Below, piece after piece: positions 9,214 through 31,800 of a DNA stretch of 64,000 nucleotides. The notes under the pieces were generated by a model. That model had not been told where the DNA came from and did no database searches. It saw only the letters and a list, made by a program, of their open reading frames with translations. The stretch's first letter is position 1. Each line of letters opens with the position of its first letter. This stretch comes from Deltaproteobacteria bacterium. Its GTDB lineage: Bacteria > Desulfobacterota > Binatia > DP-6. The position numbers were made by a program, and so were the translations under genes. Location of the stretch: assembly GCA_005888095.1 (NCBI GenBank), contig VBKF01000094.1:1-64000 (forward strand), written 5' to 3'.

Positions 9214-10368
9214 TCAGAGGTTCGGGCACTTCGCCAGACAGGCCGCAAAGGAGGCGCTGCAGCTCACGATCGTCGGGTTCGCGGTGCAGGCAGTCTTGCA
9301 CGCGTTATACGCGTCCACGGCAGCGGCGTAGCAGGATTGGACGCCGCCACACTGGCTTCCCGCGGCGACCCAGTCGTTCTGGCAAGTCTTGGTGCACTGC
9401 GTGTTCCCGCTGGAAGCGGTGGAGCCCGTGCACTTGGCCTTCTTGGCGACGCAGGCAGCTGCGCAGGTGACTCCCTTTCCGGGAGCGAAGCAGCTGGCGA
9501 AGTCCGCATCGTAGGCGGCCTGGCAGTCGGCGGCCGTCCCGATCTTCTTGCACGTCTTCTGGGCCGCGGCGGCCTGCTTGATACAGGCCGCGGTGGCGGC
9601 ACTGAACGTGGGCGCGGCCGGCGGAACAGTCGTGGTGGTGGTCGAAGACCGTACCTGAGTGGTGGTCGTCGTCGTGGTGGCACGAGGCGAGATGGTGGTA
9701 GTCGTCGGCCGGATCGTGGTCGTGGTGGTGGTAGTGGACCGCGGCGGCCTTGTCGTTGTCGTCGTGGTCGGCCGAGGCGGCAACGTTGTCGTCGTGGTCG
9801 TCGTGGTCGTCGTAGTCGCCGGACGAACGAGGGTCGTGGTCGTGGTGCCGTCTCCCAGATTCGGGCACTTCGCCAAACAAGCTGCAAAAGCGTCGCGGCA
9901 CTTCAGAGCAGCGGCGTTGCAGGCATCCTTACACGTCTTGTAGTCGTCCTTCGCAGCGGTGAGGCAGGCATGATCCCCGCCACATTGTCCACCTGCGGCA
10001 ACCCAGTCGTTCTGGCAGCTCTTTGTGCATGGCTTGACCGTTGTCGAAGTTGCAGAAGCCGTGCACTTCGCGTTCTTGGCCACGCAGGCGGCGGCGCACG
10101 AGACACCCTTTCCCACGGCGAAGCAGTTCGAAAACGCCGTGTGGTACTCGGCCTGACAAGCCGCGACACTCGCGACCATATTGCACATCTTCTGCTGCGC
10201 GGCGGCTTCCTTGATACAGGCGCCGGTCGCAAGACTGTAAGCGGGCGCTGGCGGCGGCAGCGTGGTCGTCGTGGTGACCGCAGATGCCGCTCGCGATCCC
10301 CGACTGGCGAGCACCACGACGCCGATTGCAAGCGCGGCTGCATACGTGAACGTTCTCATTCTCGACAT
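9214..10368 (-). CDS. secreted Cys-rich protein with duplicated domain and Thr-rich linker
   Basis: 384 aa. A signal peptide (~1-30) precedes a short TTTTTLPPP segment, a Cys-rich domain of ~135 residues, a low-complexity Thr/Arg/Pro linker of ~70 residues, and a second copy of the Cys-rich domain. Both copies share AACxK(Q/E)AAAxQKxC, CAAACVAKxAKC, CTKxCQNDWVAAGxQCGG and AFAACLAKCPNL, so the gene arose by internal duplication. About a dozen Cys per copy suggest disulfide bonds. The ATG at 10368 has GGAGGAG 7 nt upstream; an ATG three codons later would also do. I do not recognise the domain. The linker style recurs in two other exported proteins in this window. Confidence 0.8.
   Translation of the reverse strand: MSRMRTFTYAAALAIGVVVLASRGSRAASAVTTTTTLPPPAPAYSLATGACIKEAAAQQKMCNMVASVAACQAEYHTAFSNCFAVGKGVSCAAACVAKNAKCTASATSTTVKPCTKSCQNDWVAAGGQCGGDHACLTAAKDDYKTCKDACNAAALKCRDAFAACLAKCPNLGDGTTTTTLVRPATTTTTTTTTTTLPPRPTTTTTTRPPRSTTTTTTTIRPTTTTISPRATTTTTTTQVRSSTTTTTVPPAAPTFSAATAACIKQAAAAQKTCKKIGTAADCQAAYDADFASCFAPGKGVTCAAACVAKKAKCTGSTASSGNTQCTKTCQNDWVAAGSQCGGVQSCYAAAVDAYNACKTACTANPTIVSCSASFAACLAKCPNL
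9630..9850. repeat. GTC/GTG-rich low-complexity tract encoding the Thr-rich linker
   Basis: About 220 bp are dominated by GTGGTCGTCGTC-like triplets. Read on the minus strand they encode runs of Thr broken by Arg-Pro, Pro-Pro-Arg and Leu-Pro-Pro. The tract joins the two Cys-rich domains and is a likely site of length variation between strains. Confidence 0.7.
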
Positions 10369-11123
10369 CTCTGATCTCCTCCCATGGGAATGCGTGCGTC
10401 GCGGTCCGGCGATTTTCGGGGCACACTCCCGGTCGTCGCGTCCAGTGGGGCTCATGGCAGCGACTCATCCGTCGCGTGGCGGTGCCAAAGGGCGGAAGCA
10501 ATGGCTCCGGTCAGCCGAGAGTGCCCGTACGTGCAAGCCTTCATCCAGCTCATGGACAGCACGAGTACGGCGACACTGAGCCACAGGACGGGTGCGTGGC
10601 GTCTGATCCCGCGTCCCCATGACAAGCGTCGCAAGTGGCCGGCACCGTAGTGCGACGGTAGACAATGGAGAGCAGCGTCCTCATTTAGGGACGCGTCGGC
10701 AGCCCACGCGCGTGCCTCGATCTTCATGAGCTACACAATAAGCTCGTGCGAGGTTCGCTCCCATTCGTCGAACGGAGGAATTTTTGTACTCCTCTTCGGG
10801 GAGAAAGAAGGCGGCTCTCGGCAAAATCCTCAGCGGCGGGAGCAGCGAGCCGCAAGGACTGTGCTTCGTAGGCTCACACGATGGCCGACGACACGGATGA
10901 CCATATGGACTCGGAGAGATCGCTGCGCTTCTCGAGAGGCCCCTGTCGTAGCGCGCAGCCTAGGACGCAAGCATGCTAGCAGAGGTCCACGGCTGGGGCG
11001 ACGCATGTGTCACTGTCGGCCCATTCCGAGGCGACCCGCCGTGCGGGGATTCGACCCTCGGCCTGGAACGACTATTGCTCCCGTCCGGCCCGGATGCGCT
11101 CCGACGACGGCCAGGACTCCGGC
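10369..11123. other. 755-bp intergenic region without a convincing gene
   Basis: The stretch lies between the leftward Cys-rich gene and the rightward histidine kinase. Its base composition is less biased than the flanks, and short open frames in it lack codon bias. One minus-strand frame (10727-10452, 91 codons) contains a single hydrophobic segment but no ribosome binding site. A small GAGGA/TCCTC hairpin with a T-rich loop lies at about 10776-10795. I see no RNA gene. Confidence 0.4.
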
Positions 11124-15725: not shown

Positions 15726-17090
15726 ATGCTCTCGCGACGGCGCTTCCTCGCTTCGTCGGCGGTCGTCGCGGGAGCCGTCTTGCTCTCCCGCCGAGCGCCC
15801 GCACGCGCCCGCGACGACTGGCCCGCGCACGGCTGCGGCCCGGCGCAGACGCGCCACAACGCCGGGGAGTCGAGGCTTCGCCCGGACAACGTCGCGCGGC
15901 TCGCCTTGCGTTGGGACTTCGAAGCGGACTCGGGAATCACCGGCACCCCGGCGGTGGTCGGCGAGCGGGCCGTCGTCGGCTCCTGGGACGGTCGGGTCTA
16001 CGCTCTCGAGTGCAGCTCCGGAAAGCGGCTCTGGACCTTCGAGGCCGGGACACGGAGCTACCCGCCCGACCGGCGGCTAGGTATCTATGCCTCTCCCGCG
16101 GTCTCGGGAGAGACGGTATTCGTCGCCTGTGACCGGCTGCTCGCGCTCGATCTCGAAAGCGGGCGGCGGCGGTGGGAGCGAGTCGTGGGAGATCCGGAGA
16201 AGAGCTTCGAGTACTTCTGGGCGCCGCCGCTCGTCCACGGCGGCAGGGTCTACGCCGGCGTCTCTTCGGGGAGCGAAACGCAGACACGCGGGCGCGTCGT
16301 CTGCCTGGATGCCGCCACGGGAAGGCCGCTGTGGACGTTCTTCACCGTTCCCGCCCGCGTCTCGGGCGGCGCCCTCATCGCCCCGCCGTCGCTCGACCTC
16401 CGCTCCGGAGCGCTCTACGTCGTGACCGGGAACCCCTTTCACGTTCTCCCGGGGAACCTCGAGCACAGCTCGAGCGTGATCGCCCTCGACGCCGCGACCG
16501 GGGCCTTGCGGTGGACCGACCAGGTTCATCCTCACGACGACCGGAACCTGGACTTGAACTGCCCGCCGATGCTCCTCCGCGGCCGGCGCGGAAGACCGCT
16601 CCTCGTGGCCGGCGGCAAAGACGGCATCCGGGCGTGGGATCGCGAAGCGGGACGGCGGCTCTGGCACGTCCAGCTCAGTCCCGCCGTGCCCCCGGGGGGC
16701 GGAGAAGCCCTCCCCACGACCGGGCCCGAAGCCGGTCCAACCGCGACCGCGGACGGTTTCGTCTTCTTCGCCTCCAACCACCACGCGGACAAGGGATGCG
16801 CCGTGGCCGCGATCGAGGCCGACAGCGGCGAGATCCGCTGGCTCCACTTCCTGCCTGCGTTCCAGTTCGGTCCGCTCTCGGTCGCCGGCGGCGTCGTCTT
16901 CCTCGGCTTGATCGACGGCAAGCTTCGCGCCTGGAGGGCAGCCGACGGCGAGCCCCTCTGGGAGTCGGCTGCCGGCCCGCCGATCGCCGGCGGCCCGGCC
17001 ATCGCGCACGGCATGGTCTTCGTCGGTACCGGGGCCGGGCAGTTCCTTCCGGGGAAGAAGCTCCTCGCCTTCGGTCTCCCCTCCGCGTAG
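15726..17090 (+). CDS. Tat-exported PQQ-binding-like beta-propeller protein
   Basis: 454 aa. The N-terminus has a twin-arginine signal (LSRRRFLASSAVVAGAVLL). The mature part is built from repeated blades with the quinoprotein-type signature xxGxxYALxxxxGxxLWxF: RVYALECSSGKRLWTF, LALDLESGRRRWERV, VVCLDAATGRPLWTF, IALDAATGALRW, IRAWDREAGRRLWHV. Such folds either hold PQQ in alcohol or glucose dehydrogenases or serve as scaffolds, as in BamB. I do not see the vicinal Cys pair typical of methanol dehydrogenases. It is the first gene of the arm and ends 10 nt before eboC, so its role is presumably linked to that pathway in the periplasm. Confidence 0.82.
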   Translation: MLSRRRFLASSAVVAGAVLLSRRAPARARDDWPAHGCGPAQTRHNAGESRLRPDNVARLALRWDFEADSGITGTPAVVGERAVVGSWDGRVYALECSSGKRLWTFEAGTRSYPPDRRLGIYASPAVSGETVFVACDRLLALDLESGRRRWERVVGDPEKSFEYFWAPPLVHGGRVYAGVSSGSETQTRGRVVCLDAATGRPLWTFFTVPARVSGGALIAPPSLDLRSGALYVVTGNPFHVLPGNLEHSSSVIALDAATGALRWTDQVHPHDDRNLDLNCPPMLLRGRRGRPLLVAGGKDGIRAWDREAGRRLWHVQLSPAVPPGGGEALPTTGPEAGPTATADGFVFFASNHHADKGCAVAAIEADSGEIRWLHFLPAFQFGPLSVAGGVVFLGLIDGKLRAWRAADGEPLWESAAGPPIAGGPAIAHGMVFVGTGAGQFLPGKKLLAFGLPSA

Positions 17091-17100
17091 GCTCCGGGGC

Positions 17101-17997
17101 GTGACGGCTCCGACGCACCGTAAGGGCCTCGCCGCGGGAGTGCTCGCGCTCCTCCGGCCGCCGAACGTCTTCACCGCCGTCGCCGACTCCTTCGCCGGGC
17201 TCATCCTCGCGCGCCAGGCGGGCCCGGCGTCGGACGATCCCGGGCTCTGGTGCATCGCGGCTTCAGCCTGTCTCTACCTCGGCGGAATCGCCCTCAACGA
17301 CTACTTCGATCGGGAAGTGGATGCGGTCGAGCGACCGGAGCGCCCGATTCCCTCGGGGACCGTTCCGCCGATCGTCGCCGCGGGGCTCGGCGCGGCCCTT
17401 CTGGCCGCGGGAATCGCGTTTGCGGGCCGCGCGGGCACACCCGCCATCATGGTCGCGGCCGTGCTCGCGCTCGCGATCCTGGTCTACGACGGCGTCTTGA
17501 AGGGGACCGCAGCCGGTTTCCTCAACATGGGCGTCTGCCGCGGCCTCAACTTCTGCATGCCCATGTCGCTGGCGCCGCGATCCGTTCCGACGTCTTTTGT
17601 CTTCGCCCCGGTGCTTCTCACCGCGTACATCTCTGTCCTCACGTACCTCTCGCGCGAAGAGGTCGGCGGCAACACGCTCGAACGTGCGCGGCGCGGCGTC
17701 ACCGCGCTGGCCGTCGTCGCGCTGATCATGGCCGTTGCGATCGCCCCGTGGCCTGCGGCGCCGGTCGGATGGGCTTTCCTGGCGGTCCTCGTGGCTCGGG
17801 GTGGAATGCTCTTCGCGCCGCTCTGGACCGAGCCGGGAGGGCCGGCGACCGGACACGCGATCGGCGGAGGAATTCTGCTGATTCCGCTGTTTGACGCGAC
17901 GTTCGTCGCCGCGGCGGCCCACGTCTCATGGGCGTTCGCGGTCGCGTCGCTCATGTTGCCGGCAACGGCGCTCCGGCGCATGTACAGTCCCACCTGA
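17101..17997 (+). CDS. eboC: UbiA-family prenyltransferase, EboC-like
   Basis: 298 aa integral membrane protein with about eight or nine hydrophobic helices. The first aspartate-rich motif is NDYFDREVDAVERPERPIPSG, the NDxxDxxxD signature of UbiA enzymes. The second region reads LVYDGVLKGTAAGFLNMGVCRGLNFCMPM, which resembles EboC-type members rather than ubiquinone or heme O enzymes. UbiA enzymes attach prenyl chains to small acceptors. EboC is the membrane component of ebo clusters, where the product is unknown. Start is GTG. Stop and next ATG are separated by 1 nt. The EboC label rests on the neighbouring EboA, EboB, EboE and EboF homologues. Confidence 0.82.
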   Translation: MTAPTHRKGLAAGVLALLRPPNVFTAVADSFAGLILARQAGPASDDPGLWCIAASACLYLGGIALNDYFDREVDAVERPERPIPSGTVPPIVAAGLGAALLAAGIAFAGRAGTPAIMVAAVLALAILVYDGVLKGTAAGFLNMGVCRGLNFCMPMSLAPRSVPTSFVFAPVLLTAYISVLTYLSREEVGGNTLERARRGVTALAVVALIMAVAIAPWPAAPVGWAFLAVLVARGGMLFAPLWTEPGGPATGHAIGGGILLIPLFDATFVAAAAHVSWAFAVASLMLPATALRRMYSPT

Positions 17998-17998
17998 G

Positions 17999-18829
17999 AT
18001 GCGTCTCGGCTACAACACCAACGGCTTCACTTCCCACCGCCTGCGCGATGCGCTCGAGGTCATCGCCGGGCTCGGCTTCAAGAGCGTCGCCATCACCCTC
18101 GATGCCGGGGCGCTCGATCCGTACGACCGTTCGACGGCCCAGGAGGCGAAGGCGATCGGCGCCTGGCTGGCCGAGCACGACCTCGTGCCCGTCGTCGAGA
18201 CCGGCGCGCGGTTCCTGCTCGATCCCTGGCGCAAGCACTGGCCCACTCTCCTCTCCCCGAGAACCGAAGACCGCGCGCGAAGAATCGACTTCCTGAAGCG
18301 CGCAATAGGCGTCGCCTCGTTGCTCGGCGCGGAAGTCCTCTCGCTCTGGTCGGGAACGGCGGAAGCGGAGGAGCCGGCGGAGCTCCTGGACGAACGCCTC
18401 GCAGAGGGTCTCCGGACTCTCGCGCGCGATGCGGCCGAGCACGGCGTCGTCCTGGGCTTCGAGGCCGAGCCCGGCATGCACATCGAGAACCTGGCGGGTT
18501 TCCGCCGGATACGCGACCGGGTCGGAGAGCCGGGCCTCCGTCTCACTCTGGATGTCGGTCACGCACACATGACCGAGGAAAGCGCGCCAGAAGCCATCCG
18601 GCGCTCCGCGCGCGAGATCGTGAACGTGCACCTCGAGGGCATGCGTCACGACCGCCACGAGCACCTGCTTCCCGGCGAAGGTGACCTGGACCTCGCCGCC
18701 GTCGTGTCCGCCCTCCGTGAGATCGATTACCGCGGCCCGGCCAACCTCGAGTTGAGCCGCCACGGCCACATGGCGGTTGACGCCGCCCGCCGCGCCATCG
18801 AGTTCTTCCGGCCATTCGGGCTGCCATAG
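17999..18829 (+). CDS. xylose-isomerase-like TIM-barrel protein (sugar phosphate isomerase/epimerase)
   Basis: 276 aa. It has the fold of the AP-endonuclease-2/xylose isomerase superfamily. MRLGYNTNGFTSHRLRDALE is the first strand and helix. Likely metal ligands are in LGFEAEPGM (Glu), LTLDVGHAHM (Asp and His), NVHLEGMRHDRHEHL (His) and NLELSRHGH (Glu). Reaction unknown. Family members isomerise or epimerise sugars and cyclitols. It starts 1 nt after the eboC stop and converges on eboF with only 11 bp between stops. It is distinct from the larger EboE barrel in the opposite arm. Confidence 0.85.
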   Translation: MRLGYNTNGFTSHRLRDALEVIAGLGFKSVAITLDAGALDPYDRSTAQEAKAIGAWLAEHDLVPVVETGARFLLDPWRKHWPTLLSPRTEDRARRIDFLKRAIGVASLLGAEVLSLWSGTAEAEEPAELLDERLAEGLRTLARDAAEHGVVLGFEAEPGMHIENLAGFRRIRDRVGEPGLRLTLDVGHAHMTEESAPEAIRRSAREIVNVHLEGMRHDRHEHLLPGEGDLDLAAVVSALREIDYRGPANLELSRHGHMAVDAARRAIEFFRPFGLP

Positions 18830-18840
18830 CCATCAGGACC

Positions 18841-20214
18841 CTAGCGATCGAGGAGATCGAGTGCGAGCGAGAGGACATCGGTCATGGCCATCTTTTCGCG
18901 CGAGAAGCGGGCCTCCGAGCAGATCGCCACCGGGCCTTCCTCCGCTCGATCGGGAAGCCGCCCGTGGGTTCCCCGGACGATGGTCGGATCGAGCGAGATC
19001 ACGTCCATGAGGTAGCGGAGGCCGAGCGCCTTTCGGGCGAGCGCCCAGGCGGCGCGGAGCTTCACCAGCGGGCGAGCGGGATCGAAGAAGAGCTCCGCGG
19101 GGTCGTAGCCGGGCTTGCGATGAATGTCGACGGTGCGCGCGAAGTCGGGAGCCCGCGCGTCATCGAGCCAGTAGTAATAGGTGAACCAGGCATCGCGCTC
19201 CGCCACCGCGACGAGATCTCCCGCCCGCTCGTGGTCGAGACCGAACTCCGCCTTTCCCGCATCGTCGAGCACTCGTTCCACGCCATTCATCGAGCGGAGG
19301 ATCTCGGTCACTCGCTCCCGATCCTCGCGACGCTTCACGTAGACGTGCGCGATCTGGTGATCGGCGACGGCGAAGGCGCGCGACTCGCCGAAGTCGAGCA
19401 GCTCCCAGCCGAGCGGCGTCTCGAGCGCCGAGAGCAGGCCGGCCTCGCGGAGCACTCGGTTCGGATGCAGGGGACGGCGGGCGTCGGTGATGCCGTACTC
19501 CGAAACCACGAGCACCGCTGCGCCTCGCGCCCTCACCTGTGCGATCAGCTCGCCGGCCACCCGATCGATCTTCGTCACCTCGGCACGGGCACGCGGATCG
19601 GAGGCGCCATAGCGCTGGAAGTCATAGTCCAGGTGTGGAAGGTAGACGAGCGCGAGCGTCGGCCGGTGCTTCTCGATCACGTGCAGCGCGGCCCGCGCGA
19701 TCCACGCCGAGGCGTCGATCGCCGCCCCCGGACCCCAGAAGGTGTGGAACGGAAACGCGCCGAGCGCCGACTCGAGCTCGAGGCGAAGGCCGTGCGGGTA
19801 GGTGTAGATGCCGAAGAGCTTGCTCCCGTCGGCCGGGTACGTCGGCCTCGGCGTCACCCCGAGATCCGCCGTGGTGTTCATGTTGTACCACCAGAAGAGG
19901 TTCGCGCAGCGGAGCGACGGATCGCGCCGACGCGCCTCGTCCCACAACTTCTCTCCCTGGATGAGCGCTCCCGACTGCCGCCAGAGCCACACCTCGTTCA
20001 GCTCGCGGAAATACCAGCCGTTGCCGACGATGCCGTGATTGCGCGGAAGCTTCCCCGTCACCATCGTCGCCTGTGCCGAGCAGGTCACCGCGGGGAGCAC
20101 CGGGGCGAGCTCCGCCGCGAAGCCATCGCCAGCGAGTGCCGAGAGGTTCGGCGTCTCGGCCCCGAGCATCCCCCGCGTGAGACCCACGACGTCGAGGAGG
20201 AGAACCGGCTTCAC
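18841..20214 (-). CDS. eboF: alkaline phosphatase/nucleotide pyrophosphatase-family protein, EboF-like
   Basis: 457 aa from a GTG at 20214 that overlaps the eboE stop (GTGA). The N-terminus KPVLLLDVVGLT gives the first metal Asp, and PAVTCSAQATMVTGKLPRNHG holds the nucleophile Thr region of the NPP/alkaline phosphatase superfamily. Two later metal sites differ from textbook members. The DxxGH motif reads LDYDFQRYG (Gln in place of His), and the usual SDHG reads SEYG. The product may therefore be a specialised or weak phosphodiesterase. No signal peptide is visible, so it is probably cytoplasmic. It is the last gene of the ino1-eboA-eboB-eboE-eboF arm. Confidence 0.8.
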   Translation of the reverse strand: MKPVLLLDVVGLTRGMLGAETPNLSALAGDGFAAELAPVLPAVTCSAQATMVTGKLPRNHGIVGNGWYFRELNEVWLWRQSGALIQGEKLWDEARRRDPSLRCANLFWWYNMNTTADLGVTPRPTYPADGSKLFGIYTYPHGLRLELESALGAFPFHTFWGPGAAIDASAWIARAALHVIEKHRPTLALVYLPHLDYDFQRYGASDPRARAEVTKIDRVAGELIAQVRARGAAVLVVSEYGITDARRPLHPNRVLREAGLLSALETPLGWELLDFGESRAFAVADHQIAHVYVKRREDRERVTEILRSMNGVERVLDDAGKAEFGLDHERAGDLVAVAERDAWFTYYYWLDDARAPDFARTVDIHRKPGYDPAELFFDPARPLVKLRAAWALARKALGLRYLMDVISLDPTIVRGTHGRLPDRAEEGPVAICSEARFSREKMAMTDVLSLALDLLDR

Positions 20215-21425
20215 GACTCCCTTCGCGCGCCACACGCGGCCAGCGCGCGCTCGGCGAACTCGATCTCGCGGGCGATCCCTTCGACGAGCGTCTCGTCGTC
20301 GCGCGGCCGGATGGACTCCGGGAGCACGTTCCAGGTGTAGGTCTCGACCTCGAAATGAGGCAGCGGTCGCGTGGCGGCCGCTCGCGAGATCAGCTGGAGG
20401 AGATCCTTCGACGTGGTGCGGAGCCCCTGCCCTTGGGGCTCCCAGTGCAGCGGGGCGTGAAAGTGCACACGCCAATCGGCAGGCTCGGCGAAGCGCTCGC
20501 GAGCGGCCAGCGCGGGGCCGAGGTCGGCCCACCCTTCGACCACGCCGCTTCGGTCCCGGCGCCGCACCTGGTGGAGGAAGCGAATCTCGTCGAAGGGGCG
20601 AAGCCGTGGCTCGGCGCGCGAGGAGTCCTCCCCCGGCACCTCGAGTGCACAGGAGAGCTGGACCTTGCCGACGCGAATACCGGCCTCGGAGATCTTGCTC
20701 CATGCCGCGGCCGGGTCCTCGAACTCGACCGCTTGATGGCAAGCATCGAAGCAGAGGCCGAGATGACGGTCGACGATCGCCGGATCCACTCCCCGCCGGC
20801 GTACGGCCGGGCGGAGGCGATCGTGGAAAAAAGCGATTGCCTGGTCGCTCGTCTCCACGATGCAGTCGGGCTCGGGCTCGAGACAGACCCGGATCCGGCG
20901 GCCGTGCCGGTCGGCGAGCCGATGGAGATCCACCGCCAGGTGGGCAAGGGTCGTCGCGCATTCTTCCGCGCTCGATGCCCCGGCGGTCGGCGCATAGGTC
21001 AGCGGTAGAGTCGAGATCGTTCCCTCCTCAACGTCCGCCGGGAGAAGCTCGCACAGGATGTGCGCGAGATCGAGCGTGTAGTGATGCCGCCGGACGTCGG
21101 CCCAGTCGGGGCGATAGACTTCTTCCTTGACGCGCTCGGCGTGAAAGTCGCCGTAAGGAAAGCCGTTGAGTGTCACGAGCTCGAGCCCGTTCGCCTCGAG
21201 CCCTTCGCGAAGCTGCGTGCGCGTGTCCGGCGAGGCGAGCAGCTCGCTCGCGCTCCGGCGGCTCAGCCAGAGGCCGAGGGAGAGCCGCCGCACGCCGAGC
21301 CGGCGGCGTACCGGCGCGCAGTAACGGGACAGCGCCCCAAGAACGGACTCGAGGTCGTCGATCGCGTGAACGTTGGTGCAGTACGTGAGGATCGTGCGGC
21401 TGCCGTCGGGAAAGCGGATCCGCAT
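20211..21425 (-). CDS. eboE: EboE-like TIM-barrel protein (metabolite traffic protein family)
   Basis: 404 aa. The N-terminus TILTYCTNVHAIDDLESVL and the block LNGFPYGDFHAERVKEEVYRP are characteristic of EboE proteins, which belong to the xylose-isomerase-like TIM barrels. Further support: LPLTYAPT, RIRVCLEPEPDC with an acidic ligand, and LGLCFDACHQAVEF with the Asp/Cys/His set in the place of metal ligands. The C-terminus has PHFEVETYTWNVLP. The biochemical role is unknown; EboE is thought to act with EboF and EboC on a small-molecule precursor. The ATG lies 2 nt after the eboB stop, and the stop overlaps the eboF GTG, so translation is coupled. Confidence 0.85.
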   Translation of the reverse strand: MRIRFPDGSRTILTYCTNVHAIDDLESVLGALSRYCAPVRRRLGVRRLSLGLWLSRRSASELLASPDTRTQLREGLEANGLELVTLNGFPYGDFHAERVKEEVYRPDWADVRRHHYTLDLAHILCELLPADVEEGTISTLPLTYAPTAGASSAEECATTLAHLAVDLHRLADRHGRRIRVCLEPEPDCIVETSDQAIAFFHDRLRPAVRRRGVDPAIVDRHLGLCFDACHQAVEFEDPAAAWSKISEAGIRVGKVQLSCALEVPGEDSSRAEPRLRPFDEIRFLHQVRRRDRSGVVEGWADLGPALAARERFAEPADWRVHFHAPLHWEPQGQGLRTTSKDLLQLISRAAATRPLPHFEVETYTWNVLPESIRPRDDETLVEGIAREIEFAERALAACGARRES

Positions 21426-21427
21426 GC

Positions 21428-22300
21428 TCACCAGTGTTGTCCGCCTCGAAGGAGCGTATTCCCCTCCCACGGGCCTCGGTCGATCGCCAGTGGCTGCTCG
21501 AGCTCCGCGGGGTCGAGGCGGCCCGTCTGCGAGAAGAAGGCGACCGGGTTCTTCCAGACGAGCGTCTCGATCGCCGCGTCGGGGAGGCCTCGGCCGCGAA
21601 GGTGCATCGCCGTCCGCGGGACCTTGAGCGGATCACTCCGTCCCCAGTCGGCGGCGCTGTTGATGATCATGCGCTCGACGCCATAGCGCTCGAAGATCGC
21701 GCCGACGCGCTCCTCGGTCATCTTGGTGTCGGGGTAGATCGAGAAGCCGATGTAGTGACCGGTCTCGACGACGAGCGGCACCGTCTCCTCGGTGTTGTGA
21801 TCGATCAACACGCGCTCGGGTGCTACGTTCATCTCGCGCACGATCGCCACCGTCCGCTCGAGCCCTTTCACCTTGTCGCGGTGGGGAAGGTGGACGAGGA
21901 GGGGGAGCTCGTGCCGCATGGCCAGCTCGATCTGCACGCGAAAGAACTTTTCCTCGGTCGCCGTCTGGTCGTCGAAGCCGATCTCGCCGACCGCCACCAC
22001 GCCGTCCTTCTCGAGGTATCGCGGCAACACCTCGATCACCGCCTGATTCACGCGGCCGTCGTTGGCCTCCTTCGGGTTGAGCGCGACCGTGCAGACGTGG
22101 CGGATGCCGTACTGACTCGCCCGGTAGCGCTCGAAGCCGAGGAGCAGATCGAAGTAGTCGACGAAGGTTCCAACCGACGTCCGTGGCTGGCCCTGCCAGA
22201 AGGCCGGCTCGCAGACCGCGACGATGCCGGCAAGCGCCATGCGCTCGTAGTCGTCGGTCACCCGCGAGGCCATGTGCACGTGCGGCTCGAATATCTTCAT
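21428..22300 (-). CDS. eboB: TatD-like metal-dependent hydrolase, EboB-like
   Basis: 290 aa. The amidohydrolase-superfamily barrel shows HxH in IFEPHVHMASR near the N-terminus, VGEIGFDDQT with the bridging Glu, LLVHLPHRDK (His), VLIDHNTEE (His) and SAADWGRSDP (Asp). It differs from DNA-repair TatD proteins in the central region (FWQGQPRTSVGTFVDYFDLL), which is the form found in ebo clusters. Substrate unknown. AAGG precedes the ATG at 22300. The gap to eboA upstream is 8 nt and to eboE downstream 2 nt. Confidence 0.85.
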   Translation of the reverse strand: MKIFEPHVHMASRVTDDYERMALAGIVAVCEPAFWQGQPRTSVGTFVDYFDLLLGFERYRASQYGIRHVCTVALNPKEANDGRVNQAVIEVLPRYLEKDGVVAVGEIGFDDQTATEEKFFRVQIELAMRHELPLLVHLPHRDKVKGLERTVAIVREMNVAPERVLIDHNTEETVPLVVETGHYIGFSIYPDTKMTEERVGAIFERYGVERMIINSAADWGRSDPLKVPRTAMHLRGRGLPDAAIETLVWKNPVAFFSQTGRLDPAELEQPLAIDRGPWEGNTLLRGGQHW

Positions 22301-22308
22301 CGTGCCTT

Positions 22309-23091
22309 CTATCGCCCCGCGCGCGCGAGTGCCACCTCGAGCATGCGACGCTCGTAGGGATCGGCAGCGGTCGCCAGGCGGTTCCGGATCCGCTCGACGG
22401 TGCCCGGGATCGGGTGGAGCGCGATCACCGGCCAGAGGTCCGCGCCGACGCTCCGCCCCGCGTGCTCGCGTTCGGTGACGTAGGCGAAGAGCATGCGGGC
22501 GAGCTCCGGCGTCGCCCGCTCCTCGACCCGCTCGATGCGCTCGACGCGGAGACCGACGAACGCGCACTTGAGGACCGCCTGATTGAAGAGATCGTCCGGC
22601 AGGTGGCGCGAGGTGTAGCCGTTCTCGCAGATGGCGGCGGCGAAGAGATCGGCGGCATTGGCGCGCAGGGAATCTCTCACGGCCGGGAGCGCCGCGTCGC
22701 TCTCGGGCAGCAGCGCGAGCCCTCGGAGGAGAGCGATCCGCTCCCGGCCGTCGCTCACGAAGTAGAGATCGTTGGCGCGTGCGGGGGCGCCGGCCGGCTC
22801 GCGCCGGGCATCCTCGAGGAGAAGGAGCACCCGCGCGGCCTCATCCACGCGCCATGGGTTCAGGACAGGCCCGCCGGAAAACAGTCGGACGATCTCCGCG
22901 GAGGGCGGCTCGAGGAGCATCGCGTGACCGACCTTCCGAGGTGCGCTCGGAAAATGTCGCCCGAGCGCCAACCCGTCTCCCCGTATCTCCCTTCGGGCGG
23001 TGGAGAGCCACGCCGAGGCCGGCTGGGAAACGCGGGGCGCGAGTCGAGCGTCCAGCGCGTCGATGCTCGCGGGAAGGTTCAACTCACTCAA
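22309..23091 (-). CDS. eboA: EboA-domain protein
   Basis: 260 aa, soluble and mostly helical. The diagnostic C-terminal block is LFNQAVLKCAFVGLRVERIERVEERATPELARMLF as seen in EboA proteins (NQ-VLKALF-G-P--RI), preceded by FAAAICENGYTSRHLP and followed by YVTEREHAGRSVGADLWPVI. Its biochemical function is unknown. No ATG fits the upstream boundary: a TTG at 23091 or 23082, overlapping the stop of the preceding secreted-protein gene, is the likely start by coupling. An ATG at 23169 would overlap that gene by 86 bp and add residues that are only its shadow. Confidence 0.75.
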   Translation of the reverse strand: MSELNLPASIDALDARLAPRVSQPASAWLSTARREIRGDGLALGRHFPSAPRKVGHAMLLEPPSAEIVRLFSGGPVLNPWRVDEAARVLLLLEDARREPAGAPARANDLYFVSDGRERIALLRGLALLPESDAALPAVRDSLRANAADLFAAAICENGYTSRHLPDDLFNQAVLKCAFVGLRVERIERVEERATPELARMLFAYVTEREHAGRSVGADLWPVIALHPIPGTVERIRNRLATAADPYERRMLEVALARAGR

Positions 23092-23740
23092 TCGGCTGAT
23101 CGAGCCCGAGTGCCACCAGGAAGCGCGATGCACACTCCCCGCCTTGCCTCCCGGGATAGGGCCGAGCAAAGCGGAATTCGTACATCGGAAGCCGTCCGTT
23201 GATGGTCACGGGCCGGATCTCTTCCGAGCGCTCGGCGTCCTTCAAGCGCGCCGTGACCGACGGCGCCGATCCGGGCTTCCAGCCAAGCTTCACGTTGACC
23301 AGCGAATTGTGGTTCCAGGCTTGCCCCCCATCCGGTTCACACTTGCACCGGAGCTCTTCCACGATGTCGAAGTCGAGCGCGCTGAATTCTCCCGCCTTCT
23401 CGAATCCGAGGCCGCGGGCGCTGCGGGTGATCACTCCCCAGCCGGCGCCGAAGAGCTTTTCGGGATCGTTCTCGATCGTCGCCGACGACTGGCCGGCTTC
23501 GGTGTAGCGGAGGCGGAAGCTTGCCGGCGGCGCGGATCCTTCGAGATCTGTGTCGCACGGCGGGGGTGCCGGCTCCGCCCAGGAGATCATCTTCACCAGC
23601 GTGACGCGCTCGGGAGGCTTCGCGGCCGCCTTCGGCGGCCCTCCGGGGCCATGGTGATGATGGCGGGGCGCCGCTGCGTGCGGCCGCCAGAGACTGCAAG
23701 AGAGCAGCAAACAGATCGGTGCGAGCCAGCGGGCTTTCAC
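23084..23740 (-). CDS. secreted protein of unknown function in the ebo-type arm
   Basis: 218 aa from a GTG at 23740. The signal peptide WLAPICLLLSCSLW precedes a His/Pro/Ala-rich stretch. The mature domain holds ISWAEPAPPPC, FSALDFDIVEELRCKCEPD and YEFRFARPYPGRQGGEC. These three blocks also occur, in the same order and spacing, in the lipoprotein encoded at 25047-25730, so the two are paralogues. The Cys set suggests disulfides. I do not recognise a family. It lies between ino1 (14 nt upstream) and eboA (overlap), so it belongs to the operon and would act outside the cytoplasm, where the ebo product is thought to be delivered. Confidence 0.75.
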   Translation of the reverse strand: MKARWLAPICLLLSCSLWRPHAAAPRHHHHGPGGPPKAAAKPPERVTLVKMISWAEPAPPPCDTDLEGSAPPASFRLRYTEAGQSSATIENDPEKLFGAGWGVITRSARGLGFEKAGEFSALDFDIVEELRCKCEPDGGQAWNHNSLVNVKLGWKPGSAPSVTARLKDAERSEEIRPVTINGRLPMYEFRFARPYPGRQGGECASRFLVALGLDQPIE

Positions 23741-23754
23741 GGAACACCCGCGAT

Positions 23755-24981
23755 TCACATGCTCGCGCGCTTGCCGCCGGCCAGGGCTGCGATTCGACAG
23801 CGCCGGAGATAACTGTCCAGCATCGCATACTGCCGGCCGAGTTCTTGCTCCTGCGTGCCGACGGGCGCCTTGAAGAAACAGGCCGCCTGGGTCATGGGCC
23901 CGCTCTCGCCGCGCCGGAGCGCCAGATCCGCGAGCCGGACGAGGTCGATCACCAGAGGCGCGGCGAGCACCGAATCGCATCCTTGCCACGTGAACTGCAT
24001 CGTCATGCGCACGCCGAGAAATCCCTGGAAGTGGATCAGGTCCCACGCCGTCTTCCAGTCGCCGAGCGAGGGGACGTAGGTGATCTCGACGCTCGTCTCG
24101 GGCGAATAGCCGAGCACGCCCCGGACGACGCCGTCCTTGGTCTCCACCTTGGCGGCCTTGACCTCGGGCGCGTTCAGGGCGGCGCCGTCGGAATTGCCGA
24201 GCACATTGTCGCCGTGCCAGGCGAGCACCTGGAGGTCGCGCTCACGAAAAAGCGATGCCAGCGCCGACTTGACCAGCGTCTCGCCGGTCTTGCCGTCGGT
24301 TCCGGCGAAGGGCACGCCCTCACGCTCGGCCAGCTCGCGAATGGCCGGAGCGAGCGCGGCGGGCGACGCCGCAAAGTTGATGAACGCTGCACCTTCGCGC
24401 ATGGCAGCATAGGCGTACAGCGTGCTCGGGCGGAATACCGCCGACCCACCGCTCCTCAGACTCTCCTCGAGCCCCGCGAGCGTCAGGTGGTCTTCAGGAG
24501 TCGTGAAGACCGGCTCGGTGGTGGCGAGATTCACCACCACGACCCGCTCCAGGGAGTGCCGCCGCCGAAAGGCTCGGAGATCACCGCCGAGCCTCTGGAC
24601 GACCTCCGCCGGCGTTTCGGCGTCCTCCACCGTCACGCACGGGGGCGGCGACCCTCGAGTTTCACCGTTGACGATGTTCCGGTCGATTTCCTGGAGATCG
24701 AGCGCGAGACGATCGAGCAGACGGGGGTCGAAGATTCGCGCCGACTCGGCGAGTTCGGTCGCCGCATCCAGCAGCGACCCGGCGCGGACCTCCCACCCGC
24801 CGAACACGAGCGCGGACGCTGCGGGCATTGACAGACCCTCGCCCCGCGGCCCCTCGGTCGTGACTCCCCGCAGCGGCAAGAGACGGCGCGCGGCGGCGCG
24901 CGCGCCCACCATCGTCGTGGTCGCCACCGCGCCGCGGGCGCCGATGATCCACACGCCCGTCCGAGGTCCTTCCTCGTTCAC
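23755..24981 (-). CDS. ino1: inositol-3-phosphate synthase family protein
   Basis: 408 aa from a GTG at 24981 with GGGAGG 6 nt upstream. Cyclises glucose 6-phosphate to inositol 3-phosphate using bound NAD. Motifs: GVWIIGARGAVATTTMVGA (Rossmann loop), VVVNLATTEP, GTDGKTGETLVKSAL and LGNSDGAALNAPEVKAAK, the signature active-site blocks of the family with the catalytic Lys residues. It heads the minus-strand ebo arm. In this window there is no 3-dehydroquinate-synthase-like EboD; a second NAD-dependent sugar-phosphate cyclase stands in its place. Its product could feed the pathway or be an inositol-like precursor itself. Confidence 0.88.
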   Translation of the reverse strand: MNEEGPRTGVWIIGARGAVATTTMVGARAAARRLLPLRGVTTEGPRGEGLSMPAASALVFGGWEVRAGSLLDAATELAESARIFDPRLLDRLALDLQEIDRNIVNGETRGSPPPCVTVEDAETPAEVVQRLGGDLRAFRRRHSLERVVVVNLATTEPVFTTPEDHLTLAGLEESLRSGGSAVFRPSTLYAYAAMREGAAFINFAASPAALAPAIRELAEREGVPFAGTDGKTGETLVKSALASLFRERDLQVLAWHGDNVLGNSDGAALNAPEVKAAKVETKDGVVRGVLGYSPETSVEITYVPSLGDWKTAWDLIHFQGFLGVRMTMQFTWQGCDSVLAAPLVIDLVRLADLALRRGESGPMTQAACFFKAPVGTQEQELGRQYAMLDSYLRRCRIAALAGGKRASM

Positions 24982-25046
24982 GGTCGACCTCCCGGAATGG
25001 TTGAAGCGCACCCGCGGCTGCGATACGAAGCGCGAGCCTTCGGACC
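24982..25046. promoter_or_regulatory. 65-bp divergent gap between ino1 and the paralogous lipoprotein gene
   Basis: Promoters for the leftward ino1-ebo arm and the rightward lipoprotein gene must overlap in this gap or extend into the genes. No clear -35/-10 pair is visible. The GGGAGG on the minus strand is the ino1 ribosome site. Confidence 0.35.
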
Positions 25047-25730
25047 ATGAAACGCGCTCTCGTCGGTGTGCTCGCCCTGGCCGCAGCCTGTGGTCCCGCT
25101 GCGCGGCACGGACCGGAAGGCCGGCCAGTCCGCGAGAAGATGCCCGGGCAGACCGACCCGGCGATTCGTGCGAAGCATCTCGCGGAGCGGTTCCCGGGGG
25201 TCGAGCGGATCGACTTCGTGCAGGTGCTTGCCTGGGTCGAGCCCCGCCACGGCCCGTGCTGGAGCGAGCTTTCTCCCGTCCACCGCACCCCGGTCGAGAT
25301 GCGCTACTCGCTCCGCGGCTGGAATCCGATCGCCGGGACCGAGCACGCCGAGGGCCTCGAGGAGCTCGTCGCCCGGGGTTGGACGCGCATCTACCGCGCC
25401 CCGCAGGGCGAAGGGGTCGAGCGCCGCGCGTCCTTCACCGCGCTCGACCTGAGCTACGGCCCGGAGCTGCGCTGCCGCTGCGCCGGTGTGGGAGACGCCG
25501 TCGAAGAGTCGAAGAGCGACGTGAGCCTCCGCTTCCGCTGGGAGCGCGGCAAGATGTTCGAGGCGAGCGCGACGGGCGGAGCGCGGCACACGGGTCTCAG
25601 CCCGGCGATCACGGCCGGGCACCTCGTCACCTACGACTTCGCCACCGAGGGCGCCTTCCCCGGGGGCAAGGCGGGCAGCTGCGGCGCTCACGTCGCGCTC
25701 ACGCTGCTCATCGAGCCGCCGATCCTCTGA
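25047..25730 (+). CDS. lipoprotein of unknown function, paralogue of the 23084-23740 product
   Basis: 227 aa. A short signal peptide ends in LALAAAC, a lipobox. The mature part carries VLAWVEPRHGPC, FTALDLSYGPELRCRCAG and YDFATEGAFPGGKAGSC. These are the same three blocks, in the same order, as in the secreted protein of the opposite arm. Overall identity looks modest, so the duplication is old. The gene diverges from ino1 and ends 3 bp from the stop of the convergent propeller gene. A surface or periplasmic binding role linked to the ebo-type product is possible but not shown. Confidence 0.75.
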   Translation: MKRALVGVLALAAACGPAARHGPEGRPVREKMPGQTDPAIRAKHLAERFPGVERIDFVQVLAWVEPRHGPCWSELSPVHRTPVEMRYSLRGWNPIAGTEHAEGLEELVARGWTRIYRAPQGEGVERRASFTALDLSYGPELRCRCAGVGDAVEESKSDVSLRFRWERGKMFEASATGGARHTGLSPAITAGHLVTYDFATEGAFPGGKAGSCGAHVALTLLIEPPIL

Positions 25731-25733
25731 GCT

Positions 25734-28145
25734 TCACTCGACGACCATCCAATCGTAGGGGGCCTTCAGCTTGATGGGGCTTCCGGGCGCGCCGGGCGCG
25801 AAAGGCTCGGGATACGGGCCGTGGAACAGGTCGCTCCCGCGCGGCGCCGGGCAGGACGGCGCTCCCGGACAGGTTGCGGGAGCGGTCGGGTCGACCCCCA
25901 CGACCGCGATTCCCTTCTGCACCGGCACGTAGATCCTCCCGTCGACGATCGCCGGGCCGCCCCCGCCCGGCGTCGCGGCGGCGGGAAGCCCGACGGTGGC
26001 GAGCAGCTCGGGCTTGCGGCTGGTCGTCGCCGGCGTCACCGGCACGTCGATGCCCGAGTCCATCCGCACCACGTCGAGCCGAGTCCCCGTCGGCATGAAG
26101 AGCATGCCGCTCGCCGCGGCCCCTTCGCCGAAGCTCGCGCCGAGCGTGCTCGACGCCCACTTGAAGTCGCCGGTACAGGCGTCGACGGCGAACGCGTTCA
26201 CGTCATCGCCCGGAAGCGGGCCGAGCGGGAGCGCGGCCGAGGCCGCCAGGATGCGTCCCGAGATCACCCCACCCGCCGCATCGAAGCCGCCGCCCAGGCT
26301 GCCGTAGGCGAAGCAGGGCCGCCAGAGCAGGCGCTGTTGCCCGACGCGCAGGGGATCGAAGTCGAGGTCGCCGACCTGCGGTACGTCGGGCTGCTGTGGG
26401 AAGCCGTAGATGCAGCTGTCCTTGTCGATGGTGACGACCAGGTGGCAGCCGCCGGTTCCGTCGACGTCGACGATCGTCGGCGAGTTGCCGATGTCGAGGT
26501 CCGCGACGTCGACCAGACGGCGCTGGTGCCACCACTGCCGGGCGCCGGTGATCGGATCGAGAGCGACCAGCGACTCCGCCAGCTCGGCCATCTGCGGCTT
26601 CTGCACGCAGTCTCCGGTCGTCATGAAGAGCTGGGTCCGGTCCCGGCTCATGGCGGGCGCCGTCCAGATGACGCCGCCGAGGCCGTCGCCGTTGACGACC
26701 GGATCGAAGGTCCAGAGCTTCTCTCCGGTGAAGGCGTCGAGCGCGTAGAACTCGCCGTTCGAGCAGTCGAGACCGGTCGACGGCACGTAGAGCACGTCCC
26801 GCGGACCGCCCGGGAAAGGCATGTCCGCTGCGAAGAGCGGCGAGCCGTTCAGCGTGTTGCGGTCGCCGCCGAGATCCACGGGCGGCTCGGGCGACCCGAG
26901 CGACATCGGCCAGGGCCCGTCGCAGAAATAGGCCTGGCAGGCGCTCGGCGTGTCTCTCGTGCAGCCCGGCGGATCCGCCGGGCAGTCCCCGTTGACGTTG
27001 CACTCGCACGTGTCTTCGCAGAGCGCGCCGCTCGGGGTGACGCTCCGGTCGGCGACGATCTTGTCCACGTTCAGGCACCAGAGCGTCTTGTCGACCCGAT
27101 TCGCGCCGAAGTAGAGGCGCTGCTCGTCCTGGCCGGTGCTCGGGTTCGTCACCAGCGCCAGGTTGGGCGTCGACTGCACGCCGGTGTAGGTGCCGAGCGC
27201 GCTCCCGACGGGTCCGGCCGTGTGCGTGGCAATCCGGAGGAGGAGGCGAGGCGCCGTCGGCGGCTGCGCGTCGAGACCGCTCACGTCGTAGACGTAGAAC
27301 CAGCCGACCATGTCGCCGAAGAAGACCAGCCGGTCGCCGACCACCGGCGTGTGGTTCACCACGGTCACGCCGAAGGTCGGCGGCCCGTCCGCGGAGAGCG
27401 TCGCCAGCAACGTGAGGTCGGGCGCATTCGCCGGCGTGAGCTTCGGGTCGTCGCCGACGTTGGCGGTGTTCTGCGCGTCGAAGAAGCGGCGCGGCCAGCT
27501 GTCCACCGCGGGCGCCAGCGTCGTCGTCGTGACCGTGCTGATGGTGGTGGTGGTCGTCGGCGGCGGAGTGGTCGTGGTGGTCACGCCGGCTTGCCCCTCT
27601 GCTACCACGAAGCCTGGATCGGCAACCGACCAGATGTCGCCCTGATCCGCATTGGTCTGGACACCGATCCCATTGACGACGTTGCCCGCGAGATAGAACG
27701 TCACCGGCCCCGCGCCGGGATTCGGCGCGACCCAGTCGATGTCCCAGGAGCTGCCGAGCCCCGTGGGACCGACGAATCCGACCGACTTGGGCGCCGAATG
27801 CGTCGCCTGTCCGTCGAGCCCGCTCACCCACGCGCTCGAGTCGAGGGCGTGAAGCGTGCCGGCGGTGGCCTCGAGGTCGAATCCCGCGAAGCGCGGCGCG
27901 GGAAGCGCGATCCCGCGCACCCAGGCCTGCAGGTGATAGGTGGTACTCGGGACGTAGGCATCCGGCAGCCCCACCACCGAAACCTCGGTCGTCTTGTTCG
28001 AGGTCGTTCCGGCCATGCCGTGGCACGTGCAGCCCTGGGCCGGCCGGGCGACGCCGGTGATACCGGTCGAGTACGCCGAGACGAGCGGCGCTAGGAGAAG
28101 GCCCGCGGCAACGAAGCCGAGGAACAACGAAGTCGTCAGTCTCAT
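25734..28145 (-). CDS. secreted choice-of-anchor V (Reeler-like) domain fused to PQQ-like propeller
   Basis: 803 aa. Signal peptide ~1-24; then a Reeler-like choice-of-anchor V domain (~30-185) containing GCTCHG (C39-x-C41-H42, a possible heme-attachment variant) and the closing block AGPVTFYLAGNVVNGIG. A Thr/Pro linker (~188-212) leads to a quinoprotein-like propeller (~215-800). Propeller features include LVALDPITGARQWW, FYALDAFTGEKLWTF and a Cys-rich insert near CEDTCECNVNGDCPADPPGC. AGGAG precedes the ATG. It is the last gene of a four-gene operon with an amidohydrolase and a copper monooxygenase. A role as periplasmic electron acceptor or quinoprotein dehydrogenase in that pathway is inferred. 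Confidence 0.8.
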   Translation of the reverse strand: MRLTTSLFLGFVAAGLLLAPLVSAYSTGITGVARPAQGCTCHGMAGTTSNKTTEVSVVGLPDAYVPSTTYHLQAWVRGIALPAPRFAGFDLEATAGTLHALDSSAWVSGLDGQATHSAPKSVGFVGPTGLGSSWDIDWVAPNPGAGPVTFYLAGNVVNGIGVQTNADQGDIWSVADPGFVVAEGQAGVTTTTTPPPTTTTTISTVTTTTLAPAVDSWPRRFFDAQNTANVGDDPKLTPANAPDLTLLATLSADGPPTFGVTVVNHTPVVGDRLVFFGDMVGWFYVYDVSGLDAQPPTAPRLLLRIATHTAGPVGSALGTYTGVQSTPNLALVTNPSTGQDEQRLYFGANRVDKTLWCLNVDKIVADRSVTPSGALCEDTCECNVNGDCPADPPGCTRDTPSACQAYFCDGPWPMSLGSPEPPVDLGGDRNTLNGSPLFAADMPFPGGPRDVLYVPSTGLDCSNGEFYALDAFTGEKLWTFDPVVNGDGLGGVIWTAPAMSRDRTQLFMTTGDCVQKPQMAELAESLVALDPITGARQWWHQRRLVDVADLDIGNSPTIVDVDGTGGCHLVVTIDKDSCIYGFPQQPDVPQVGDLDFDPLRVGQQRLLWRPCFAYGSLGGGFDAAGGVISGRILAASAALPLGPLPGDDVNAFAVDACTGDFKWASSTLGASFGEGAAASGMLFMPTGTRLDVVRMDSGIDVPVTPATTSRKPELLATVGLPAAATPGGGGPAIVDGRIYVPVQKGIAVVGVDPTAPATCPGAPSCPAPRGSDLFHGPYPEPFAPGAPGSPIKLKAPYDWMVVE

Positions 28146-29674: not shown

Positions 29675-31777
29675 TCATAGACCCGGCCCGCAGCCCGAGC
29701 AGTAGCCGATGTCGCTCGGTGACTTGGGCAACCGTCCGGGAGTCCCGTACTTGCTGATGTTGTTCGGGTCTGACTCGAAGTCCTGGATAGCCTGCTGGTT
29801 GAGCGAGCCATCCTGGTTCAGGATCTCGTCGAGCGGCCAGTACATCACGACGCCAATGCACATCTCGTCCTCGGCCACGTTGGCGAAGACGATGTTCGCC
29901 GGGACGCAGTTGCCCGTTCCCGTCGTGCAGATGTCGGGGTTCGGATACCCGCCGTCGACGGGATGGCAGTTCGGGTCCTGTCCCGGAGTGCAGCCCGATG
30001 GATCCGTTGCGGGGTTCGGCGGGCAAACCTGCGCGGGCGACCCCACAGAACCCGGAGGTACGCCCGGTACCTCCTCACAGCCGTAGCGGACGCGGTAGAT
30101 GAGCTGCTTGATCCCGAGATCGTCCTTCTGCTCGCCGAAGAGCACCTCGTCCCCGACGGTGCCGTCGCGGATCGCCGTCCGGAGCGGCTCCGGCGCCTGC
30201 TCGGTCTGGATGACGCCGTTGTTGTGGATGCAGTGGGTCGCCAGGGCGTCGCCCTTGCGCAGGATCAACGGACCATCCGGCTGCTTGTAGTAGCGGCAGA
30301 CCGGCGGATCGTCCCAGTGCCAGTCGGTGTAGATGTGCTCCGGCGGGAGGCCATTCTGGCTCACGCCGCACTCCTCGGGCCTGACTCCGGCGCCCGCCTC
30401 CTCCGCGCTCAGCCCGCCGGTGCGGATGGGGTTGGCTGGCAGGACGTCGATCGTCCCCTTCACCGTGCGCTTGTGGCTGTGGATGGCGAGGATGCCGATC
30501 GCGAGATCATAGGGCGCGTACCAGACGCCGCCCGTGTTCCCGATCGTGTACGGCGGGAAGAACGTGGTGGCGACGTTGACCACGACGTCGAAGCCGACGC
30601 TGAGCGGCTTGTAGTTGCCGTCGGCGACCGGCGCGGTGAAGAGCTGGATGATCATCTCGCCGACGGTCCCGCCGATCGGCGTCGTGCCTGGCGCGGGCCA
30701 GCCGTCTTCCGCGTGCTGGGCGATCAGCCCGCCCTGCTGCTTGCGGAAGTTCCGGAAGGTCGTGTTTCCCTGGTAGCCGATCGGCAGCTCCGAGACGACG
30801 TGGTGGTCGCAGGCCCAGAGCTGGTCCTCGAGGTTGTACACGGCGCGGCCGGTGGGAAGGTCGACGAAGAGGCGGCCCGGGTACTGCGTCGCGTTGCGGA
30901 ACTGCTGGTTGTAGCCGCTGTACACCGAGCAGTGGAAGCCCGGGTCGCTGGCGGGACAGGTCTCCGCGCCCGACTGATAGCTGCCGGCCGGCGGCGGGTT
31001 CCCGTTCGTCCCGCATTCGCTCGTGCTCGAGGCGGTGGCGGAGTCGTCGGGGTTGTTGCAGGGGTTCGGTCCCTGGAGCTGCCCCGTCCCCTGGAACCCC
31101 ACTCCCGGGTTCCAGCAGGTGCCGTGGTGGCTGCCGAAGTGGTTGTAGAACTCGGAGGCGACGTTCCACTCGCGGCGGTTGTCGGGCGCGACGTTGTCGT
31201 CATTGAGCTGATTGGTGTTCTCGAACCGGACGATCACCTCGGCGAGACGATCGTAGATCTTGGGGTCCGTCCCGACCTGCCACGGCCCGTAGTGGACGCG
31301 GACGCCCCGCCGGCACTCGACGGTGTAGAGATTCGTCCCGTCCGTATCCTGACCCGCCGGCGCCCACCATGGGATCTGATGATCGTTGCCCCCGGTGATC
31401 GCGTTGGGCACGTCCGGACAGAGTTGTGTGAGGCCCAGTCCGGGCTCGTCGAACCCGTCCACGCCGTCGGTGTAGAGCGGCGGCGGCCGGTCGACAGGTC
31501 CATGGAGAAATCCGGTGATGGGATCGTACGCCGCCCGCACGGGCACGTGGAGCTGCACCGTCGCCGGCAAGTCCCAGTACAGCGGCTGGCAGTCGGTGGT
31601 GTAGTTCTCCAGGGACTCGATGTTTCCCGGATTGGGGAGCGGATTTTTCTGCAGCGCCGTCCCACAGCGGCTACTCGGCTTGAGCTCGGGGTTGGTGTGG
31701 TAGTCCGCCGTGGCCGTGGTGACTCCGATCAGCAGGGTCGCCGCCGCTCCCAGCGTCATCGGCCTGGTGCGCGTCAT
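29675..31777 (-). CDS. secreted PHM-like copper type II monooxygenase-family protein
   Basis: 700 aa. Signal peptide ~1-24. The C-terminal half matches the peptidylglycine/dopamine monooxygenase fold. CDHHVV (H325-H326) fits the CuH His pair. AIHSHKRTVKG (H433, H435) fits the HxH of CuM. GDALATHCIHNNG corresponds to the conserved GDxLxxxC strand, and AEDEMCIGVVMYW (M639) to the Met ligand. A third CuH His is not obvious. Such enzymes hydroxylate C-H bonds using copper, O2 and an electron donor. The long N-terminal half has many Cys and no recognised domain. GGGAGGG precedes the ATG. Substrate unknown. Operon partners are a Tat amidohydrolase and heme/quinoprotein-like proteins. Confidence 0.78.
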   Translation of the reverse strand: MTRTRPMTLGAAATLLIGVTTATADYHTNPELKPSSRCGTALQKNPLPNPGNIESLENYTTDCQPLYWDLPATVQLHVPVRAAYDPITGFLHGPVDRPPPLYTDGVDGFDEPGLGLTQLCPDVPNAITGGNDHQIPWWAPAGQDTDGTNLYTVECRRGVRVHYGPWQVGTDPKIYDRLAEVIVRFENTNQLNDDNVAPDNRREWNVASEFYNHFGSHHGTCWNPGVGFQGTGQLQGPNPCNNPDDSATASSTSECGTNGNPPPAGSYQSGAETCPASDPGFHCSVYSGYNQQFRNATQYPGRLFVDLPTGRAVYNLEDQLWACDHHVVSELPIGYQGNTTFRNFRKQQGGLIAQHAEDGWPAPGTTPIGGTVGEMIIQLFTAPVADGNYKPLSVGFDVVVNVATTFFPPYTIGNTGGVWYAPYDLAIGILAIHSHKRTVKGTIDVLPANPIRTGGLSAEEAGAGVRPEECGVSQNGLPPEHIYTDWHWDDPPVCRYYKQPDGPLILRKGDALATHCIHNNGVIQTEQAPEPLRTAIRDGTVGDEVLFGEQKDDLGIKQLIYRVRYGCEEVPGVPPGSVGSPAQVCPPNPATDPSGCTPGQDPNCHPVDGGYPNPDICTTGTGNCVPANIVFANVAEDEMCIGVVMYWPLDEILNQDGSLNQQAIQDFESDPNNISKYGTPGRLPKSPSDIGYCSGCGPGL

Positions 31778-31800
31778 CGTCGTTCCCTCCCACCTCTGCG

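Follow-up and report, generated by a model that had tools for sequence, protein, structure and literature searches.

Genes and layout of the cluster

The window, that is, the whole stretch of 64,000 nucleotides that was analysed, is part of a 71-kb contig in a 5.46-Mb draft genome (G000). Between positions 15,726 and 25,730 it carries two convergent gene arms, and all the genes were found exactly where an earlier note on this DNA had placed them, with the layout and spacing given there. The plus arm begins with a gene for a quinoprotein-like beta-propeller with a Tat signal (propeller, 15726..17090, +; PQQ_2/PQQ, PF13360, 137 bits). It is followed after 10 nt by eboC (17101..17997, +), encoding a UbiA-superfamily intramembrane prenyltransferase, and after a further 1 nt by X (17999..18829, +), which encodes a xylose-isomerase-like TIM barrel (AP_endonuc_2, PF01261, 133 bits) and is a companion of Ino1-type ebo clusters. 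The stop codon of X lies 11 bp from that of eboF, the last gene of the minus arm. This arm contains, in order, ino1 (23755..25011, −), encoding a myo-inositol-1-phosphate synthase of an archaeal-like subfamily; sec (23084..23758, −), encoding a Sec-exported orphan predicted to be all-beta; eboA (22309..23091, −), which has a TTG start overlapping sec and encodes an alpha-helical repeat protein; eboB (21428..22300, −), encoding a TatD-like metallo-dependent hydrolase; eboE (20211..21425, −), encoding a TIM-barrel "metabolite traffic protein"; and eboF (18841..20214, −), encoding a hydrolase similar to type I phosphodiesterases/nucleotide pyrophosphatases. Neighbouring genes of this arm overlap or are a few nucleotides apart. 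Divergent from ino1 lies lipo (25047..25730, +), whose product, with the N-terminus MKRALVGVLALAAAC, is a lipoprotein-like paralogue of Sec. A scan of the cluster for promoters and terminators was uninformative.

Immediately beyond the cluster, the gene at 25734-28145 (−) encodes a large PQQ/propeller-like protein that is exported and has a haem-like CxCH motif at its N-terminus; it is the second propeller protein of the neighbourhood. Long open reading frames without a Pfam match were observed nearby at 29678-31861 (−) and 9217-10455 (−).

The earlier note had called the cluster ebo-type, and this is borne out by EboE (NF035939, 423 bits, cut-off 250) and EboA (EboA_domain NF035938, 135 bits, cut-off 50), which both exceed the curated NCBIfam cut-offs and match no unrelated families. 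Its recognition of five Ebo proteins by motifs also holds for EboB and EboF. EboB scores 53 bits with PF01026, over the cut-off, and 467 bits with an EboB profile built from ebo loci, the profile libraries used containing no curated EboB model; EboF matches PF01663 (206 bits) and has NPP relatives in the PDB. EboC is the exception, being under its own equivalog cut-off. NF035940 is nonetheless its top family (197 bits, cut-off 250), nearly tied with the SCO3242 family NF045897 (168 bits, cut-off 260), which places the protein between the two; a UbiA of S. canus reaches 306 bits on the latter model. EboC also matches UbiA (PF01040, 53.5 bits, cut-off 34.2), and relatives with solved structures are limited to DGGGP synthase and chlorophyll synthase.

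The EboA model (pLDDT 91.6) is a HEAT/armadillo-like solenoid. Structure matches were discarded as a guide to its function, since the PDB matches (Z up to 9.7) include many HEAT/armadillo repeats and any helical repeat gives such matches. Across 24 X proteins, 13 polar residues are conserved at 90% or more, including E155, D185, H188, H220 and E251, and X is close to the inosose dehydratase, keto-gluconate epimerase and dehydroshikimate dehydratase families.

Ino1, X and EboD in this genome and in related clusters

A point left out by the earlier note is that no EboD sugar-phosphate cyclase was found, either in the cluster or in the whole genome. The single DHQ-synthase detected in a whole-genome search is AroB, and in a tree of 88 DHQ-synthase rows it is located inside the AroB clade, cleanly separate from the EboD clade. 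The same type of search identified the ino1 gene of the cluster as the only one in the genome. The encoded protein contains both Ino1 domains (PF07994, 160 bits; PF01658, 107 bits), and its nearest solved structure is Archaeoglobus fulgidus Ino1 (1u1i, 273 bits), with which it shares homology over the full length and all four catalytic lysines (Lys274, Lys278, Lys306 and Lys367 in the A. fulgidus numbering), whereas the genomic context differs. In the window, Ino1 and X are linked to EboA, EboB, EboC, EboE and EboF in a genome without EboD, and the cluster is a genuine ebo variant in which ino1 occupies the place of the missing EboD.

Clusters of ebo genes occur across many bacterial phyla and also in the plastids of some algae. 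With the eboABCDEF operon (Yurchenko et al. 2016, PMC5133447; Klicki et al. 2018, PMC6282210) the window shares clustered EboA, EboB, EboC-like, EboE and EboF proteins, but it has no EboD and contains Ino1, the TIM barrel X, two convergent arms and orphan exported proteins. The same seven gene families are found in the actinobacterial SCO3242/SCO3243-type cluster (ino1-UbiA-X-A-B-E-F), which is nearest to the window in the Ino1 tree and, weakly so, in the EboE tree. In Streptomyces and other Actinobacteria the genes ino1-C-X-A-B-E-F form a single operon; the genes of both window arms are linked there, in one collinear order. In contrast to this cluster type, the window carries eboC-X on the convergent arm, has sec inserted and does not show the collinear order; its X and EboA are not fused, and its EboC is under the SCO3242 cut-off. 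For S. coelicolor, SCO3242 and SCO3243 appear in a published listing together with the CDA cluster (PMC3610822). Our literature search found no paper linking Ino1 to ebo.

The distribution of the two cyclases was analysed in 80 named loci gathered by EboE similarity. Together with the window, 52 loci contain ino1 and X without a DHQS and three contain EboD without X; in 15 further loci X is present and ino1 was undetected, in several cases because the contig ends. At the genome level, an ebo-type Ino1 without EboD was found in 10 genomes and EboD without an ebo-type Ino1 in 27 (two of them called from fragments adjoining eboE that were too short for the tree); two genomes have neither and none has both. 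The Fisher p value for this alternation is 3e-9, a figure that ignores kinship and is weakened by it and by the non-random sampling of genomes, the Ino1 set having been obtained through similarity to the EboE of the window. X follows the same division, being present in 17/18 Ino1-type rows versus 0/27 EboD-type rows. In the EboE tree the cyclase state switches five times, and three of the switches, among them switches inside both Gammaproteobacteria and Planctomycetes, are forced by well-supported branches. The independent pairs with support, three in number, all lie in the expected direction and are too few for a phylogenetic sign test to reach significance. The presence of either Ino1 or EboD in the clusters of related genomes supports the view that ebo enzymes make a lipid-linked cyclitol.

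Two kinds of ebo loci were observed in Gammaproteobacteria, X-C-A-B-E-F and EboD-bearing. All five genomes with the former arrangement contain Ino1 and have AroB as their only DHQS, as established by whole-genome searches. In two of the five, Ino1 shares contig and strand with X and lies some 11-12 kb upstream of it, and in three metagenome-assembled genomes Ino1 is on a separate contig. Of 369 gammaproteobacterial genomes sampled evenly, only three contain any Ino1. This sample contained 14 further EboE-positive genomes, 13 of which are EboD-type, one of them by a fragment at a contig end adjoining eboE; the fourteenth has neither cyclase, its cluster being cut by the contig edge. One gammaproteobacterium (G539) combines EboD with an Ino1 that belongs to another subfamily and is unlinked. 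At L270 (G541:C134), in an otherwise complete ebo cluster, a frameshift or in-frame stop seems to divide eboD at about 9705-10700. A further gammaproteobacterial ebo cluster (L077:9090-14900) has convergent B-E-F and C-X arms and is an independent case of a layout resembling that of the window.

In the phylum of the window, the six other EboE-positive genomes sampled are EboD-type and lack Ino1, and no EboE match was found in the single sampled genome of the same family or in the 12 others sampled from the same class. The EboE and Ino1 proteins of the window group, with modest support, with Ino1-type proteins of Actinobacteria, Gammaproteobacteria and Gemmataceae. The cluster was likely acquired horizontally.

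Three loci of the same phylum (L206, L207 and L210), of the form Ino1-X-(B)-X-C-(F), have Ino1, X, an EboC-like protein and EboB- and/or EboF-like proteins in common with the window; unlike it, they contain no EboA or EboE and have two X barrels, and 2/3 carry the exported pair ex and sq described below. They represent a related, apparently undescribed cluster type. In L203-L205, L208, L209 and L216, Ino1 is clustered with one or two X-type TIM barrels, and in L211-L215, also of this phylum, a divergent Ino1 subfamily adjoins a single X barrel with no other ebo genes nearby.

Proposed pathway

EboD is a sugar-phosphate cyclase, and the six-gene ebo operon has been proposed to make an isoprenoid-cyclitol (PMC5133447). 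We consider it probable (roughly 0.6) that the cluster encodes an Ino1-type ebo pathway in which Ino1 and X, in place of EboD, supply the cyclitol for prenylation by EboC. The reactions, their order and the product that we infer would be as follows. Ino1 would convert glucose-6-phosphate to a cyclitol phosphate (inositol phosphate), and would thereby occupy the slot held by EboD in ABCDEF-type clusters. The TIM barrels X and EboE and the hydrolase EboB may remodel the head group, with X acting on a polyhydroxy-ketone intermediate, and EboF may remove or transfer the phosphate. EboC, related to DGGGP synthase, the prenyltransferase of archaeal ether lipids, would add an isoprenoid chain in the membrane, and EboA, as a HEAT/ARM-like repeat protein, would serve as the scaffold of a membrane complex, a role with which its modelled solenoid is compatible. 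The product would be an isoprenoid-cyclitol lipid that is used at the inner membrane's outer face, perhaps as a carrier, as suggested by the Nostoc ebo mutants, all of which failed at the export of the scytonemin monomer in the study concerned (PMC6282210).

Isopentenyl diphosphate (IPP) isomerase genes in or next to ebo clusters suggest an isoprenoid substrate. One of them, confirmed by NCBIfam, adjoins Ino1 in L207 (L207:6112-6654), and close relatives are present in the ebo loci L077 (12482-13165) and L116 (4132-4746). These connections with isoprenoids, and those of the exported pair ex and sq (described below) with the periplasm, agree with both the isoprenoid-cyclitol proposal (PMC5133447) and the export phenotype (PMC6282210). 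Several points count against the pathway as drawn. The sequence of EboC, its key enzyme, scores under the equivalog cut-off, and in vitro a homologue of EboC farnesylated 8-hydroxyquinoline-2-carboxylate (PMC9235831), so that the acceptor may be aromatic. The small number of supported switches, the non-random choice of genomes, the three metagenome-assembled genomes with Ino1 on a separate contig and the EboD-bearing G539 with its unlinked Ino1 also weigh against it.

The exchange of EboD for an unrelated ring-forming enzyme argues independently that a cyclitol is required by the pathway, and the product of Ino1 is known. Since many Streptomyces carry the Ino1 version, inositol phosphate could be used as a test substrate for EboC, and genetically tractable strains are available for finding the molecule. 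We also put forward, tentatively and at somewhat less than even odds, a broader reading in which ebo clusters in general encode an isoprenoid-cyclitol pathway whose ring-forming module, either EboD or Ino1 with X, is interchangeable and was swapped several times between bacterial lineages. The product of this pathway would be a prenylated cyclitol lipid of a class not yet described, serving, together with extracytoplasmic partner proteins, as an export carrier or receptor.

Alternative readings and the exported proteins

The two cluster types could also yield different final products, the shared genes representing a common prenylation and export machinery and Ino1 with X providing a distinct head group. 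This is rather unlikely in our view, but it is favoured by the substrates of the cyclases, as EboD probably takes sedoheptulose-7-phosphate to a C7 ring product (PMC5133447) and Ino1 takes glucose-6-phosphate (C6), and by X being an additional enzyme that EboD-type clusters lack. It is opposed by the retention of EboA, EboB, EboC, EboE and EboF and by the occurrence of ex and sq with both cyclases, although such conservation does not fix the product, given that EboA and EboE are replaceable in L206, L207 and L210. That Ino1 stands in the cluster by chance, supplying inositol for an osmolyte, an inositol phospholipid or a thiol, appears quite improbable. Ino1 is common in other contexts, a copy being present in 53/345 genomes of the phylum, mostly of another subfamily, but its linkage to ebo genes recurs among Actinobacteria, Gammaproteobacteria and relatives from the window's own phylum, EboD is excluded where an ebo-type Ino1 occurs, and X tracks Ino1.

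The earlier note was right to call the cluster a variant, and the replacement of EboD by Ino1 and X is what makes it one; its further proposal, that the variant is defined by extra exported components (the Tat propeller, Sec and the lipoprotein) receiving the product, is very improbable. The three genes do flank or interleave with the operon, and sec overlaps both ino1 and eboA and is therefore probably co-transcribed with them. Nevertheless, sec and lipo were rejected as conserved ebo partners, as the 344 other phylum genomes lack them and so do all the further ebo loci that were examined. The propeller was rejected likewise, its matches being unrelated PQQ proteins only, and it is no regular member of other ebo loci. 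By their position, the three proteins may still use or bind the product of the cluster.

Sec and Lipo are paralogous (29% identity, E 3e-21, BLASTP) and their genes flank ino1; profile searches gave no family match for either. The Sec model (pLDDT 67) could not be assigned to a known fold, with no Foldseek PDB match at E ≤ 0.001. The TAT_signal score of the propeller (19.5 bits) is under the cut-off of 22.7, and its closest solved chains are quinohemoprotein alcohol dehydrogenases, as partial matches.

A different exported pair is shared among other ebo clusters. It consists of ex, a small exported protein, and sq, a secreted squalene-hopene-cyclase-like protein, and makes an extracytoplasmic role of the product generally plausible. 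The pair adjoins EboD in L039 and L041 (sq at L039:6334-7500 and L041:13217-14485) and Ino1 in L207 and L210 (sq at L207:8788-9972 and L210:8374-9567), and sq is found near Ino1 in five gammaproteobacterial loci as well (L174-L178).
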